From: a virus
Length of the DNA: 36,018 nucleotides
Reading direction: 5' to 3' (one strand)
IMG/VR virus record: IMGVR_UViG_3300024348_000129
Location: 1 to 36,018 of that record
The notes under the pieces were generated by a model that was not told where the DNA came from, ran no database searches, and saw only the letters and a program-made list of their open reading frames with translations. Below, piece by piece: positions 1-36,018 of the stretch (positions are counted from its first letter, which is position 1; every line of letters starts with the position of its first letter). The position numbers were made by a program, and so were the translations under genes.

Positions 1-134
1 AAGACACTTTGCTGCCACTTAAGCAGTTGGAAGTTAAGTTCAGCACTGCGTTCAGACATCTATCACATCCTCGTTGGTAGTAGACACCAATGGTGACGTT
101 AAGCCTGTAATGTTGATAGACACTGTTGGTGCAC
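1..134. repeat. Terminal redundancy, left copy (circular closure)
   Basis: These 134 bases recur at 35885-36018 with one difference: G at 115 here, A at 35999 there. The copy holds the first 19 codons of terL and the last part of terS on the minus strand. Because both genes read straight through the junction, this is best explained as assembly overlap of a circular or circularly permuted genome with a unit length of 35,884 bp. A packaging repeat inside the terminase genes would be unexpected. Confidence 0.95.
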
Positions 135-411
135 TGTTACCTGACTTCTGTGCCTCAAAGACACTTACTGGGACAATCCTATCAACAATTAACTTCCACG
201 CTGCTGCTTGATTCTTATGTTCATCATTCAATGCTGCATCATAAATAGCTTCTAGAACCTTAGCACTCTTAGGTGAGTTAAGCATTCTAAGCTTATATTC
301 ATTAATTATAGCTGCATCACCTTTAGGTCTACCTACACTACGGTTCTCACTTATAGACTTTAAAGCCTTAGTGGATGTTCGACCTACTTTATTACCTGTT
401 GGTTTAGTCAT
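52..411 (-). CDS. terS: Small terminase subunit (probable)
   Basis: 119 aa, first gene of the minus-strand late block. The small terminase recognises phage DNA and presents it to the large subunit for packaging. I call it mainly from position: its stop (TGA) overlaps the terL start in ATGTCTGA across the circle junction. The protein has a basic N-terminus with a GRPKGD motif (residues 27-32), a helical middle, and a Ser/Thr-rich tail, as in many small terminases. A consensus sigma70 promoter lies about 240 bp upstream (-35 at 684-679). I see no decisive domain motif, so the function is an inference from synteny. Confidence 0.65.
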   Translation of the reverse strand: MTKPTGNKVGRTSTKALKSISENRSVGRPKGDAAIINEYKLRMLNSPKSAKVLEAIYDAALNDEHKNQAAAWKLIVDRIVPVSVFEAQKSGNSAPTVSINITGLTSPLVSTTNEDVIDV

Positions 412-565
412 GTTCTTCCGTCTTTGTCCTCTATAGGGAGACTTTTAAGTATAGTACTATAGAGTACTAAGACATTATATTTAAGTTATAAAGACATAAT
501 ATTAATTTACTTAGTAAGTAATTACTTATAATAATTAATTTAAGTGGTATTTAACTACTATGTTC

Positions 566-576
566 CCCTACTAGGG
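566..576. promoter_or_regulatory. CCCTA-N-TAGGG palindrome (possible operator)
   Basis: Perfect inverted repeat CCCTA C TAGGG with a one-base centre. The same arrangement, extended to ACCCTA T TAGGGT, occurs at 1325-1337 at the other end of the control region. The repetition suggests a binding site for a phage or host regulator. No protein can be assigned to it. Confidence 0.35.
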
Positions 577-655
577 TGTACGGATTAGCCATCTCAGACT
601 AACTTAGAAGTGGGGTCAGGCTTCTTAGTAAACTCAATTATATCCTATGAAGAAT

Positions 656-684
656 ATTGTATCATACTTATGTCTATTTGTCAA
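656..684 (-). promoter_or_regulatory. Sigma70 promoter for terS/terL
   Basis: On the minus strand: perfect -35 TTGACA (684-679), a 17-bp spacer (678-662), and -10 TACAAT (661-656). A TG one base upstream of the -10 gives an extended -10 element. The expected start is near 649, about 240 nt before terS. It is very close in sequence and spacing to the promoter at 32611-32583. This indicates late transcription by host sigma70 RNA polymerase. Confidence 0.8.
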
Positions 685-721
685 GCTTTTATTGTCATGT
701 ACACATATATTTCTTCTTTTA

Positions 722-737
722 TGTGATTCTAGTCACA
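722..737. promoter_or_regulatory. CRP-type binding site
   Basis: TGTGA-TTCTAG-TCACA, a perfect match to the CRP core TGTGA-N6-TCACA, with symmetric flanks extending to 721-738. Its centre lies about 80 bp upstream of the predicted start of the 684-656 promoter, close to the -82.5 spacing of class I CRP activation. Whether the host's CRP-family protein binds here is an inference. Confidence 0.5.
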
Positions 738-822
738 TTTATGTTCACTTTAACGCTCCGCTAAAGTTCCCCATTCTCAGGGTGTCTGCTAAGTACTCTG
801 AAGTAATACTTTTCTTATATTT

Positions 823-851
823 ATCATACAGTTATCTTTGGAGTCTGTCAA
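823..851 (-). promoter_or_regulatory. Second sigma70 promoter toward the late block
   Basis: On the minus strand: -35 TTGACA (851-846), a 17-bp spacer (845-829), and -10 TATGAT (828-823), which matches five of six consensus bases. It points the same way as the 684-656 promoter and would give tandem promoters with the CRP-type site between them. Confidence 0.65.
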
Positions 852-1012
852 GGTCTATATTTCCTTTTTTGTGAACTTCAGAGGCTCCTGCAATAGTAAT
901 CACAACACAGATGACCCTCCCCCCTGTCAAGTTAGTTAGTACTTACTTTGCAGTGCTCTGAAGTTATCCACAGGTTATCCACAGGCTACAAAGTTATCCA
1001 CATCTAGGTAGT

Positions 1013-1036
1013 CAACTAGAGGTTGTCCAACTAGAG
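1013..1036 (+). repeat. Direct repeat CAACTAGAG
   Basis: CAACTAGAG occurs at 1013-1021 and 1028-1036, a 15-base period, just right of the first DnaA-box triplet. The purpose is unknown; it could be part of the origin architecture. Confidence 0.5.
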
Positions 1037-1097
1037 CAGGCGTGAGAGGCGATGTAGCACCCTTTGAAGTATCTTGGGAGTTGTTTTAAAGCAACAC

Positions 1098-1109
1098 AGG
1101 GTTAACCCT
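1098..1109. promoter_or_regulatory. AGGGTTAACCCT palindrome
   Basis: A perfect 12-bp palindrome between the two halves of the DnaA-box cluster. A near copy, AGGGTTGACCCT, lies at 1318-1329. It may be an operator for a regulator not identified here. Confidence 0.4.
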
Positions 1110-1317
1110 AACTATGAAGTTATACACAAGTTATACACAGGGTGTGGATAATGTACTGGCAGGGGTATAAGTTATACACAGGCAAAGTCTTATATAAGAG
1201 TTAAAATTGTGGATAAGTACTAGTTGTGGTGTTAGTAACTTTGTCCAAGGGTGTAGGTGCTTGACACCCTGTTATGGCCTCTGAGGGCTTCTAATCGCTT
1301 ATGTCTGAGGTAGTATA

Positions 1318-1337
1318 AGGGTTGACCCTATTAGGGT
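1318..1337. promoter_or_regulatory. Overlapping AGGGTTGACCCT and ACCCTATTAGGGT palindromes
   Basis: AGGGTTGACCCT (1318-1329) overlaps a perfect inverted repeat ACCCTA T TAGGGT (1325-1337). The TTGACC inside could be a weak -35, but no good -10 follows at 16-18 bp. The position, about 120 bp before the first early gene, suits an operator controlling early transcription. Confidence 0.4.
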
Positions 1338-1373
1338 TTATATATTGTAAATAAATGGTAATTTGTCGCCAAT

Positions 1374-1405
1374 GTGACAGGTACAGGGGTGCAACCTGAC
1401 ATAAT
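1374..1405 (+). promoter_or_regulatory. Candidate early promoter (extended -10)
   Basis: TGA followed by CATAAT (1397-1405) forms an extended -10 element. GTGACA (1374-1379) resembles a -35, but the 20-bp spacer is too long. The expected start near 1412 gives a leader of about 40 nt to the first plus-strand gene. It is a weak prediction, but I see no better plus-strand promoter just ahead of the block. Confidence 0.35.
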
Positions 1406-1454
1406 AGATACATGGAAAGCAAACGCTGACCTGTTAACTAACTAAGGATTCAAG

Positions 1455-1649
1455 ATGGAAACAGTACTTATTAAAGACCTCCCAAAAGGTGAGTTCTTCA
1501 AGCGTAAACCTGATGCTAACAAGGTTTATCAGCGTGACACATATAACCGTGAAGCCAAAAAGTATGACTGCACTGATATGTTAGACTGCTGGGGCAATGG
1601 TTTGCAGTTAAAAGGTTCTACGGTTGTTTATATTGGTTTTGACTATTAA
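1455..1649 (+). CDS. Hypothetical early protein, 64 aa
   Basis: First gene of the early block. A Shine-Dalgarno sequence AAGGA lies about 8 bases before the ATG. The protein has a KRKPDA motif (residues 17-22) followed by spaced Tyr/Arg, a single Cys-Asp pair, and a C-terminal VYIGFDY. I recognise this pattern from small uncharacterised proteins of other podoviruses but know no function. First-position early genes often counter host defences or take over host metabolism; that is inference only. It is followed after 14 bases by the next gene. Confidence 0.75.
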   Translation: METVLIKDLPKGEFFKRKPDANKVYQRDTYNREAKKYDCTDMLDCWGNGLQLKGSTVVYIGFDY

Positions 1650-4008: not shown

Positions 4009-4220
4009 ACATTGATGAGAATAAACCTTGGCCTTTCCCATCACACTTTGGTGATGCCCATGAAGATGATAAGTTAAAGGCTGATTGTCTAGCCTTACTG
4101 GAGAACTTCACAGCCTTCCAACTCAGAGGTGAAATCTACTATGGCTACCTTGATGTGAGAGCATTGAAGGTAATCGAAGAACTACGTAAGGACATAGATG
4201 AAACTAAATCTAGTACGTAA
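4005..4220 (+). CDS. Hypothetical protein, 71 aa
   Basis: Begins in an ATGA overlap and ends 23 bases inside the primase-helicase gene. The protein starts with a Pro/Trp-rich segment (KPWPFPSHFGDAHEDD, residues 7-22), then two predicted helices. The long overlap and position just before the helicase suggest co-translation. No function assignable. Confidence 0.68.
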   Translation: MNIDENKPWPFPSHFGDAHEDDKLKADCLALLENFTAFQLRGEIYYGYLDVRALKVIEELRKDIDETKSST

Positions 4221-5826
4221 ACCTAAGCCTGAGTCTAAACTCATCAAGCATATTGCCTGTGATGCGTGTGGTAGTTCAGACGCTAACGGGTTATATGATG
4301 ACAATCACACATACTGCTTTTCATGCAACACTTACTACAATGAGTCAGATGCTGATGAACTGTCAGTTATGCGAGATGCAGTAGCACCTAGAAAGCAAGC
4401 AATGCTAGAGATTAAAGGTCAGATTAAATCGATACCTGAGAGAGGTATTACCCTTCAAACCTGTGAGAAATATGGAGTTACACAAGAAAATGGACAGCAC
4501 TTTTATCCTTACACTGACGATACCGGAACACCAGTCGCAGCAAAACTTAGACGAGTGGCAGACAAAACTTTCAGCATTCTTGGAACATTCACGAATGCTA
4601 GGCTTTTCGGACAGCAGCTCTTTCACGCTGGTGGCAAAGCAGTCACCATCACTGAAGGAGAACTTGACGCTCTAGCAGCTTTTCAGATGCAGGGTAGCCT
4701 GTACCCTTCAGTGTCAGTCAGGAACGGTGCACAGGCTGCTTTAAAGGACTGCAAAGCACAATATGAGTGGCTTAACTCCTTCGATAGCATTGTGATTTGC
4801 TTCGATGCTGATGAACCGGGTAAGAAGGCTGCAAAGGAAGTAGCTGAATTGTTCGGTCAGAAGGCTAAGATTGTGAAGCACTTGAGTGGCTACAAAGATG
4901 CTTGTGACTATCTGATTGCAGGTGCTACCAAAGAGTTTGTGAATGAGTGGTGGAGAGCTGAGGTGTACATCCCAGATGGTATTATCAATGCTGCATCACT
5001 GTGGGAAGAAGTTATTAAACCTGAGGCTAAGGCTGAGGCTATGTACCCGTGGAAGGGCTTGAATAAGCTTCTCTATGGTATCAGACCTTCAGAGTTAATC
5101 ACAGTCACAGCTGGAAGTGGACTAGGTAAGAGTCAGTTTCTACGTGAGATATTGTTCAATATACTGAACACTACCAAGTGGAACATTGGAGGGTTATTCC
5201 TCGAAGAATCCACTCGAAAGACAGCTAGAAGTATCATGAGCTTACACGCTAACAAGCTTCTGCACTTGCCTGACACACCAACAACTGAGAAGGAACTTAA
5301 AGATGCTTTCGATGCAACACTTGGTACTAATCGTGTGTATCTCTTTGACCACTTCGGTAGTAGTGACGTTGACAACATTGCCAACAGAATCCGATACATG
5401 GCTAAAGCTTGCGATTGCAGGGTTATCTTTCTTGACCACATCAGTATTGTTATATCTGGTCAAGACAATGGAGATGAGCGTAAGGCTATTGATAACATGA
5501 TGACGAAGCTTCGTACACTGGTGCAAGAGCTAGAGATTACCTTGATCTGTGTCAGTCACCTTCGTAGACTGCAAGGCAACCAAGGGCACGAAGATGGAGG
5601 CAGTGTGTCATTGTCGCAGCTCAGAGGCTCAGGTGCTATTGCTCAGCTCAGTGATGCTGTGATTACATTGGAGCGTAACTCAATGGCTCAGGATGACAAT
5701 GAGAGACATCAAACTAAGATTTCAGTGGCTAAGAATCGTTACAATGGCTACACAGGCCCAGCTTGTGTACTGAAGTACAATATGGACACTGGACGCATGG
5801 TTGAAATTCAGGAGGAAGTATTATGA
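4198..5826 (+). CDS. DNA primase-helicase, T7 gp4-like
   Basis: 542 aa, near the 566 aa of T7 gp4. It makes RNA primers and unwinds DNA at the phage fork. Domains in order: an N-terminal zinc ribbon (C21, C24, C40, C43); a TOPRIM primase core with TEGELDA (E153) and FDAD (D203, D205); and a RecA-like DnaB-type hexameric helicase with Walker A AGSGLGKS (K311), Walker B VIFLD (D413) and a sensor-like ICVSHLRR. All key residues are present. It overlaps its upstream neighbour by 23 bases and the downstream gene by ATGA. Antisense and out-of-frame readings within it look spurious. Confidence 0.96.
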   Translation: MKLNLVRKPKPESKLIKHIACDACGSSDANGLYDDNHTYCFSCNTYYNESDADELSVMRDAVAPRKQAMLEIKGQIKSIPERGITLQTCEKYGVTQENGQHFYPYTDDTGTPVAAKLRRVADKTFSILGTFTNARLFGQQLFHAGGKAVTITEGELDALAAFQMQGSLYPSVSVRNGAQAALKDCKAQYEWLNSFDSIVICFDADEPGKKAAKEVAELFGQKAKIVKHLSGYKDACDYLIAGATKEFVNEWWRAEVYIPDGIINAASLWEEVIKPEAKAEAMYPWKGLNKLLYGIRPSELITVTAGSGLGKSQFLREILFNILNTTKWNIGGLFLEESTRKTARSIMSLHANKLLHLPDTPTTEKELKDAFDATLGTNRVYLFDHFGSSDVDNIANRIRYMAKACDCRVIFLDHISIVISGQDNGDERKAIDNMMTKLRTLVQELEITLICVSHLRRLQGNQGHEDGGSVSLSQLRGSGAIAQLSDAVITLERNSMAQDDNERHQTKISVAKNRYNGYTGPACVLKYNMDTGRMVEIQEEVL

Positions 5827-34671: not shown

Positions 34672-35943
34672 TTAGTATCCTGATATAACGTCTAAGACTT
34701 CGTAGTCATCATCTTCATAATCTGTGTTGTAACTGGTGATAGCTAATTGGTCAATGTAACTTAAAGCATCTACCAAGTCATCATGTACACCAGCTGTGGG
34801 GAACATCACTAATTGATCTCTAAACTCACTCCAGTCTTCTTTCTCATTGAAGGACACCCTTCCATGTTCCATACGACCTTGTAAGCTCCAGACAACCCTA
34901 TCAGTCTTCTTCTTGTTACCGTGAGTTAAGTCTTGAATGTGAGCATAGATGTTATTCTTCCTCATCAAGTCATTCAGGTAGGGCAGTACTGCATTCTTCA
35001 ATGCTCCTCGCTCAATACCAATGCTTGTGGGTTGAAAGTCTCTAATCACCTTTAAGATGTTAACTGCAGTCTCTCTAATGTCCCACCTACCATGCTGGAT
35101 CTTATGAACCCACCAATCACCATTGTCCTCTAGCTTAACTACTGCAATAGCTGTTTCATCTAGTCTCTTCTTAGATGCACCTGCATTCTTACCAACCTCT
35201 TCAAAACCAGCTAAGTCAATGGCTACAATGTATGTACCGTAACTTGGTTCTTCAGCAGTCTTGAACCATTCCTCTTTGAAGACATCAGCACCTGCGGTAT
35301 CAAAGCTAGACAAGTACTCCTGCTTAAATGCAAAGGAACTCAATGTTCTTTTAGCAGCCTCAATCTCCTTAGGATCAATAGTCTCATTGTCCTGAGTGGT
35401 AAAGTGCCATGACTTCCACTCCTCATCTTGCTCCTCTTGTCCTAGATTAAAAGTATCATAGAACCAGTTACGACCACTTGGAGTAGAGATAAATAAAGCT
35501 CTACCCTTCTTATCTGACAGTGAAGCACGTATAATCTTCTGCCATACATCTTCTTTAACGAAGGCACACTCATCAAGTACTACATACGTTAAAGACACAC
35601 CTCGGAGACTATCTGGGTTATCAGCACCTCGTACCAGTATCTTCCTACCATTAATCAATGTTATCTCAAGATTATTGATGTGACTTGCTTTAATGACTGG
35701 TCTACCCAAGTCATGCAGTAAGTCCCACATAATCGTTCTAGCTTGTCCTAGGGTAGGTGCTATGTACATCACAGCTGAGCCTTCAGGACAGTTCAAACCT
35801 TCAATCAATAATGATACAGCTGACAACCTTGATTTACCACAACGCCTACCAGCTGCAACTACTTTAAACCTTGTAGTGTCTTTAAAGACACTTTGCTGCC
35901 ACTTAAGCAGTTGGAAGTTAAGTTCAGCACTGCGTTCAGACAT
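34672..35943 (-). CDS. terL: Large terminase subunit (packaging ATPase-nuclease), 423 aa
   Basis: Motor that cuts and pumps DNA into capsids. ATPase: Walker A AAGRRCGKS (K37) and Walker B VVLDE (D124, E125), with coupling motif STPSG (153-157). Nuclease (RNase H-like): D243 in VAIDLAGF, D262, E311 in GIERG, and D388/D389 in HDDLVDAL. All key residues are present in one uninterrupted frame. The start lies in the terminal redundancy; the first 19 codons are duplicated at 1-59. It overlaps terS by 8 bases at the circle junction. Confidence 0.96.
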   Translation of the reverse strand: MSERSAELNFQLLKWQQSVFKDTTRFKVVAAGRRCGKSRLSAVSLLIEGLNCPEGSAVMYIAPTLGQARTIMWDLLHDLGRPVIKASHINNLEITLINGRKILVRGADNPDSLRGVSLTYVVLDECAFVKEDVWQKIIRASLSDKKGRALFISTPSGRNWFYDTFNLGQEEQDEEWKSWHFTTQDNETIDPKEIEAAKRTLSSFAFKQEYLSSFDTAGADVFKEEWFKTAEEPSYGTYIVAIDLAGFEEVGKNAGASKKRLDETAIAVVKLEDNGDWWVHKIQHGRWDIRETAVNILKVIRDFQPTSIGIERGALKNAVLPYLNDLMRKNNIYAHIQDLTHGNKKKTDRVVWSLQGRMEHGRVSFNEKEDWSEFRDQLVMFPTAGVHDDLVDALSYIDQLAITSYNTDYEDDDYEVLDVISGY

Positions 35944-36018
35944 CTATCACATCCTCGTTGGTAGTAGACACCAATGGTGACGTTAAGCCTGTAATGTTAA
36001 TAGACACTGTTGGTGCAC
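35885..36018. repeat. Terminal redundancy, right copy
   Basis: Second copy of bases 1-134. The single mismatch (A at 35999 for G at 115) falls in the third position of codon 99 of terS (ATC versus ATT, both Ile). A silent change suggests real strain variation among the templates rather than random error. The copy contains the start of terL (35941-35943) and a truncated 3' part of terS whose full copy is at 52-411. Confidence 0.95.

Follow-up and report, generated by a model that had tools for sequence, protein, structure and literature searches.

The question raised by this locus is why a phage with T7-type replication genes should carry a dense cluster of DnaA boxes of the host type, and whether this cluster serves as an origin of replication. 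The window analyzed here is an entire virus record of 36,018 bases, the ends of which (1-134 and 35885-36018) are identical but for one mismatch; given this 134-base overlap, it probably represents a complete genome of ~35.9 kb, cut between terL and terS. In its list of open reading frames a 1-kb noncoding control hub (412..1454) separates a leftward putative terS (52..411, minus strand), which adjoins terL in a conserved position, from rightward early genes that begin with a 64-residue ORF of unknown product (1455..1649, plus strand) and lead to a T7-type primase-helicase (4198..5826, plus strand), PolA, an exonuclease, endonuclease I and a class II ribonucleotide reductase. The order terS-gap-early genes is kept in relatives. 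The description of the virus as a T7-like phage, made in the initial annotation, thus applies to the replication genes, which resemble those of T7 in the primase-helicase, polymerase, exonuclease and endonuclease I, but not to the structural genes, as the portal fits SU10/P22 models and shows weak similarity to the HMO-2011 group. No close cultured relative was present in the phage collection searched. The primary origin of T7 is driven by phage promoters and not by DnaA, and a T7-type RNA polymerase was not found in the window, in that no PF00940-type enzyme is among the annotated proteins and none was recovered by a profile search, which matched in no control genome either.

The eight exact DnaA boxes reported previously are all present at 964-1216, on both strands, with two pairs (964/975 and 1120/1131) spaced 11 bp, or one turn, apart. 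Five are copies of TTATCCACA and three of TTATACACA, and their equation with the E. coli R1/R4 and R2 boxes is borne out by the E. coli oriC used as query, which contains TGTGGATAA, TTATACACA and TTATCCACA. Beyond these eight there is no further copy of TTATNCACA in all 36,018 bases. The earlier estimate of a chance expectation below one copy is about right, since TTATCCACA and TTATACACA together occur on average 0.98 times in dinucleotide-preserving shuffles (maximum 3) and none of 100 shuffles reaches eight; the corresponding values for TTATNCACA in the same shuffles are a mean of 2.0 and a maximum of 6, again with 0/100 reaching eight.

The cluster consists of two units, a triple at 964-1002 and a conserved array at 1120-1216 that is followed by a degenerate sixth box. 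The left triple is made up of exact TTATCCACA words at 964..972, 975..983 and 994..1002 (all plus strand; 0, +11, +30); this arrangement, separate from the array, recurs in loci L041 and L060, and a similar triple is found in DC31-like phages. An anchor, GTGAGAGGCGATGTAGCACC (1042..1062, plus strand), lies between what we term the left and right slots, and similar anchors are present in loci of every cassette type described below. The array itself begins with two plus-strand TTATACACA boxes, the first (1120..1128) at a spacing conserved in type A relatives and the second (1131..1139) represented by weaker variants in many of them, and continues with an exact TTATCCACA word on the minus strand (1143..1151), also found in type A relatives, and a plus-strand TTATACACA (1172..1180) that opens a core shared across phage families. 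The palindrome GTCTTATATAAGAG (1187..1200) is similar to the interior of the SdhR operator, and it is followed by the fifth array box, a minus-strand TTATCCACA (1208..1216) that also belongs to the core, and by the degenerate sixth box (1230..1238, minus strand), which reads TGTTAGTAA in the window and TGTGGATAA in relatives and in unrelated phages. An AT-rich block near terS (470..560) is also present in relatives with other cassettes. The only strong sigma70-type matches of the hub, both leftward on the minus strand, are TTGACA-N17-TATGAT (823..851), a consensus match only, and TTGACA-N17-TACAAT with TG (656..684), a consensus match with similar sequence at the same place in relatives; they face terS and the structural genes.

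The initial annotation had proposed that related genomes be compared for boxes at equal spacing, and among 80 IMG/VR loci whose primase is 78-97% identical to that of the window both the words and their spacing proved to be conserved in at least 20 relatives. In this type A layout, found upstream of the early genes in many gap-containing loci, the boxes stand at +0, +11, -23, +52/53, -88/89 and -110/111 (the sign giving the strand). The words differ mostly at the free N position or as weak-box variants, and decayed forms such as TTATCAACA, TTACTCACA and TTGTCCACA also occur. Mean pairwise identity in 20 type A loci is 0.90 for boxes 1-5 and 0.99 for the palindrome, where conservation within the array is highest, as against 0.76 for the inner spacers and 0.49 and 0.58 for the flanks of the array, which is the pattern expected from selection on protein-binding sites.

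The boxes are not universal in the lineage, and the idea that they are was rejected. In the slot of the array, non-DnaA cassettes are found in relatives whose primase and terminase are 93-98% identical. Type B, a second DnaA design, has four minus-strand boxes (0/19/38/73) followed by a sigma54-type promoter, TGGCAC-N5-TTGCA, while type C has three GCGGCAATATTTGCC-like palindromes with TGGCAT-N5-TTGCA and no DnaA boxes. In both types the boxes or GCGGCAATATTTGCC repeats lie directly upstream of TGGCAY-N5-TTGCA, ~50 bp before the first early gene, and this motif is rare elsewhere (15 perfect matches in 1.94 Mb of strand sequence). Near-perfect sigma54-type promoters were seen in nine type B loci (L010, L019, L021, L023, L024, L028, L035, L043 and L077) and five of type C (L026, L031, L042, L059 and L070). 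Early transcription in type B and C phages may, to judge from these motifs, need host sigma54 and an activator. Type D, also devoid of DnaA boxes, consists of repeats of GTCTTATATAAGACATAAGA that correspond to the inner palindrome and right arm of the SdhR operator, a comparison with one published motif, reported as TCTTATGTCTTATATAAGACATAAGA (PMC4494728). Such SdhR-operator-like repeats precede the early genes in L040, L044, L051, L064, L066 and L074. When types A to D are mapped on a tree of 46 primase genes, 20 changes are counted vs. 21.0 with shuffled labels, and a type A and a type C locus (L034 and L031) have identical primase DNA. Cassette types are scattered at random over the primase tree.

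The left slot varies as well, and its contents, which are variously combined with types A to D, are a Fur-like box TGAGAATCATTC, GTCGGAA..TTGACA repeats, GTCAACTAGA repeats or the DnaA triple. A Fur-box-like AATGAGAATCATTC was seen in about 20 relatives (for example at ~5683 in L037, ~5496 in L058 and ~1866 in L019), beside any right-slot cassette, and TGTCGGAA-N-TTGACA repeats, forming a TGTC-N8-GACA inverted repeat, occupy the left slot of L031, L044, L048, L058, L059, L066 and L073. The factors behind the Fur-like boxes and the sigma54-type promoters above are presumably those named, as judged from consensus motifs. A few loci fit none of the right- or left-slot motifs.

Part of the array extends well beyond this lineage. 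A distant search with window positions 940-1240 picked up the segment 1170-1216 in Limnohabitans phage DC31 (85.7%, E 2e-4) and, as a fainter match, in Curvibacter phage P26059A (78%, E about 1); the DC31 element as query matches P26059A at E 2e-11. Both are lytic long-tailed phages (siphophages) of freshwater Comamonadaceae. The core comprises a plus-strand box at -18, TCTTATATAAGA at 0, a minus-strand box at +19/20 and usually a second at +41/42, with extra boxes at -79, -68 and -50 in several DC31-like phages, and a pattern search found it in 62 viral contigs, some of which, with lengths of up to 83 kb, have proteins like those of DC31 or P26059A and unlike those of the window. DC31 and P26059A thus share with the window a box, TCTTATATAAGA, box, box order at equal spacing, the last box being decayed in P26059A, but they are large siphophages, P26059A has an annotated PolB-type polymerase, and their element is far from the primase gene. 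This A-core element is so far unannotated in both; the papers on the two phages do not mention DnaA, and nothing relevant was found in the literature searched for DnaA boxes in podophage genomes. The shared core suggests that the window phage also infects Comamonadaceae. A DnaA-box cluster of another design was observed in L090 (2550-2800) and L100 (3480-3740), contigs whose proteins match neither the window nor DC31 nor P26059A.

Taken with word, spacing and conservation, this sharing with unrelated phages makes it very likely that host DnaA binds the boxes. Because close relatives carry likely sites for other host proteins instead, we read the cluster as a control module that can be exchanged, and not as a fixed origin, and we tentatively propose, at somewhat less than even likelihood, that it is a docking module for host DnaA in exchangeable hub slots, controlling early transcription and perhaps thereby the start of replication. 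Host DnaA would occupy the array on genome entry, possibly joined by a host factor at TCTTATATAAGA, and the complex would set rightward early transcription toward the replication genes, which in turn may open or prime a nearby replication start, in the manner of DnaA-stimulated transcription at ori-lambda. In sister phages other host regulators would bring about the same step, and it would be recombination in the conserved flanks that makes the cassettes interchangeable. What the right-slot cassettes of this group have in common is a likely host-regulator site shortly before the first early gene, accompanied in two types by a sigma54-type promoter, and hence the most economical account is that they control early transcription. 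The fit to a DnaA-regulated promoter is uneven: the type B boxes adjoin a sigma54-type promoter, while behind the type A array of the window no rightward sigma70 or sigma54 promoter is recognizable. Furthermore, although the core runs in the direction of the neighboring genes in DC31-like phages, it is reversed to them in P26059A, L147, L161 and L162 and lies ~20 kb from the primase gene in DC31 and P26059A, a poor fit to a pure promoter element. Transcription control and replication control are not necessarily alternatives, however, as the precedent of lambda indicates: DnaA sites and DnaA-stimulated transcription act there in ori activation (PMC3985674 and works cited there). The ori/pR/pO region of lambda is like the hub in having DnaA sites close to phage promoters and the origin, beside early genes, but lambda has its own O initiator and two DnaA-box-like sites near pO, whereas the window has eight perfect boxes and no recognized initiator.

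The alternative that survives best builds on the DnaA-dependent origin put forward in the initial annotation: a host oriC, captured or mimicked, at which DnaA opens the DNA near the array and the phage primase-helicase and PolA load; we regard it as unlikely, if still deserving of serious weight. Like an E. coli-type oriC, the cluster packs several perfect, high-affinity boxes, facing either way and in part one turn apart, into ~250 bp of noncoding DNA, and there is a single noncoding array per genome, of oriC-like box density and spacing. Its geometry differs from that of E. coli oriC, however, and it has the conserved TCTTATATAAGA palindrome, no adjoining AT-rich unwinding element and unrelated modules in its place in sister phages. 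The exact four-box type A geometry gave no match in cellular genome contigs of 84,980 species, and a TerL scan of cellular genome contigs found no relative. A search of a plasmid collection with E. coli DnaA yielded mislabelled chromosomes but no Burkholderiales among them, and a Neisseria chromosome filed there had only two boxes near dnaA and no TTATATAA within the stretch examined. The cumulative GC-skew minimum of the window (1004-1006) falls inside the cluster, as an origin would predict, but it coincides with the divergence of transcription, and in DC31 and P26059A the minima are 15-16 kb from the element, at gene divergence points and so themselves confounded by transcription. Since skew follows gene direction, it is weak evidence for an origin, and it was rejected as a decisive test. 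The boxes of DC31 are bordered on their left by repeats such as CATTATATAAGCGTTTACTTATATAAG (L120, 5900-5955), in a 77% AT block that is like an unwinding element, while the AT-rich block of the window is 400-500 bp away from its array. Loading by DnaA is not known for T7-type helicases. What stands of the origin proposal is that the boxes are real, conserved and common to unrelated phages, whatever the gene orientation; what counts against a fixed origin is the very observation named beforehand as refuting it, that boxes are lost in close relatives sharing replication genes, as in types C and D and in the pair with the same primase DNA. An origin would be possible if the other cassettes were alternative origins.

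A DnaA decoy or datA/DARS-like element, by which the replicating phage would titrate DnaA or alter its nucleotide state and block host initiation, is in our judgment improbable. It would account for many perfect high-affinity words functioning in any orientation and location, and in E. coli both titration by DnaA-box plasmids and the activity of datA and DARS are established (PMC5835720), but titration requires number rather than strict spacing or a nearly invariant palindrome, there is no box outside the cluster, and sister phages manage without the array. Least probable of all, and very doubtful, is that the boxes are sites of another phage or host protein with DnaA-like specificity, or a signal for DNA entry or pausing comparable to the T5 injection-stop region, noncoding DNA described as rich in repeats and DnaA boxes (PMC13250531), for although the region adjoins terS, the variation at N and the variant words agree with the known DnaA consensus, and a phage DnaA homologue was not found, including by a DnaA search of viral contigs. 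T5 itself is an unrelated phage with a different genome organization.

Returning to the docking module, we consider it only just short of an even chance that this freshwater phage group uses its two exchange slots to shuffle cassettes that dock DnaA (in two designs), sigma54 with its cognate activator, SdhR and Fur, independently of lineage, thereby wiring the start of infection to host physiological signals or diversifying the hub against parasites, competitors or defenses. The box-TCTTATATAAGA-box-box pattern provides a bioinformatic handle on phages that probably infect Comamonadaceae, and the near-isogenic natural set of phages with and without DnaA boxes bears on the role of DnaA for a T7-type replisome. 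If the proposal is true, lytic phages tie the first steps of infection to the master regulators of their hosts via DNA modules that can replace one another, and swapping one cassette would alter which host state permits infection.
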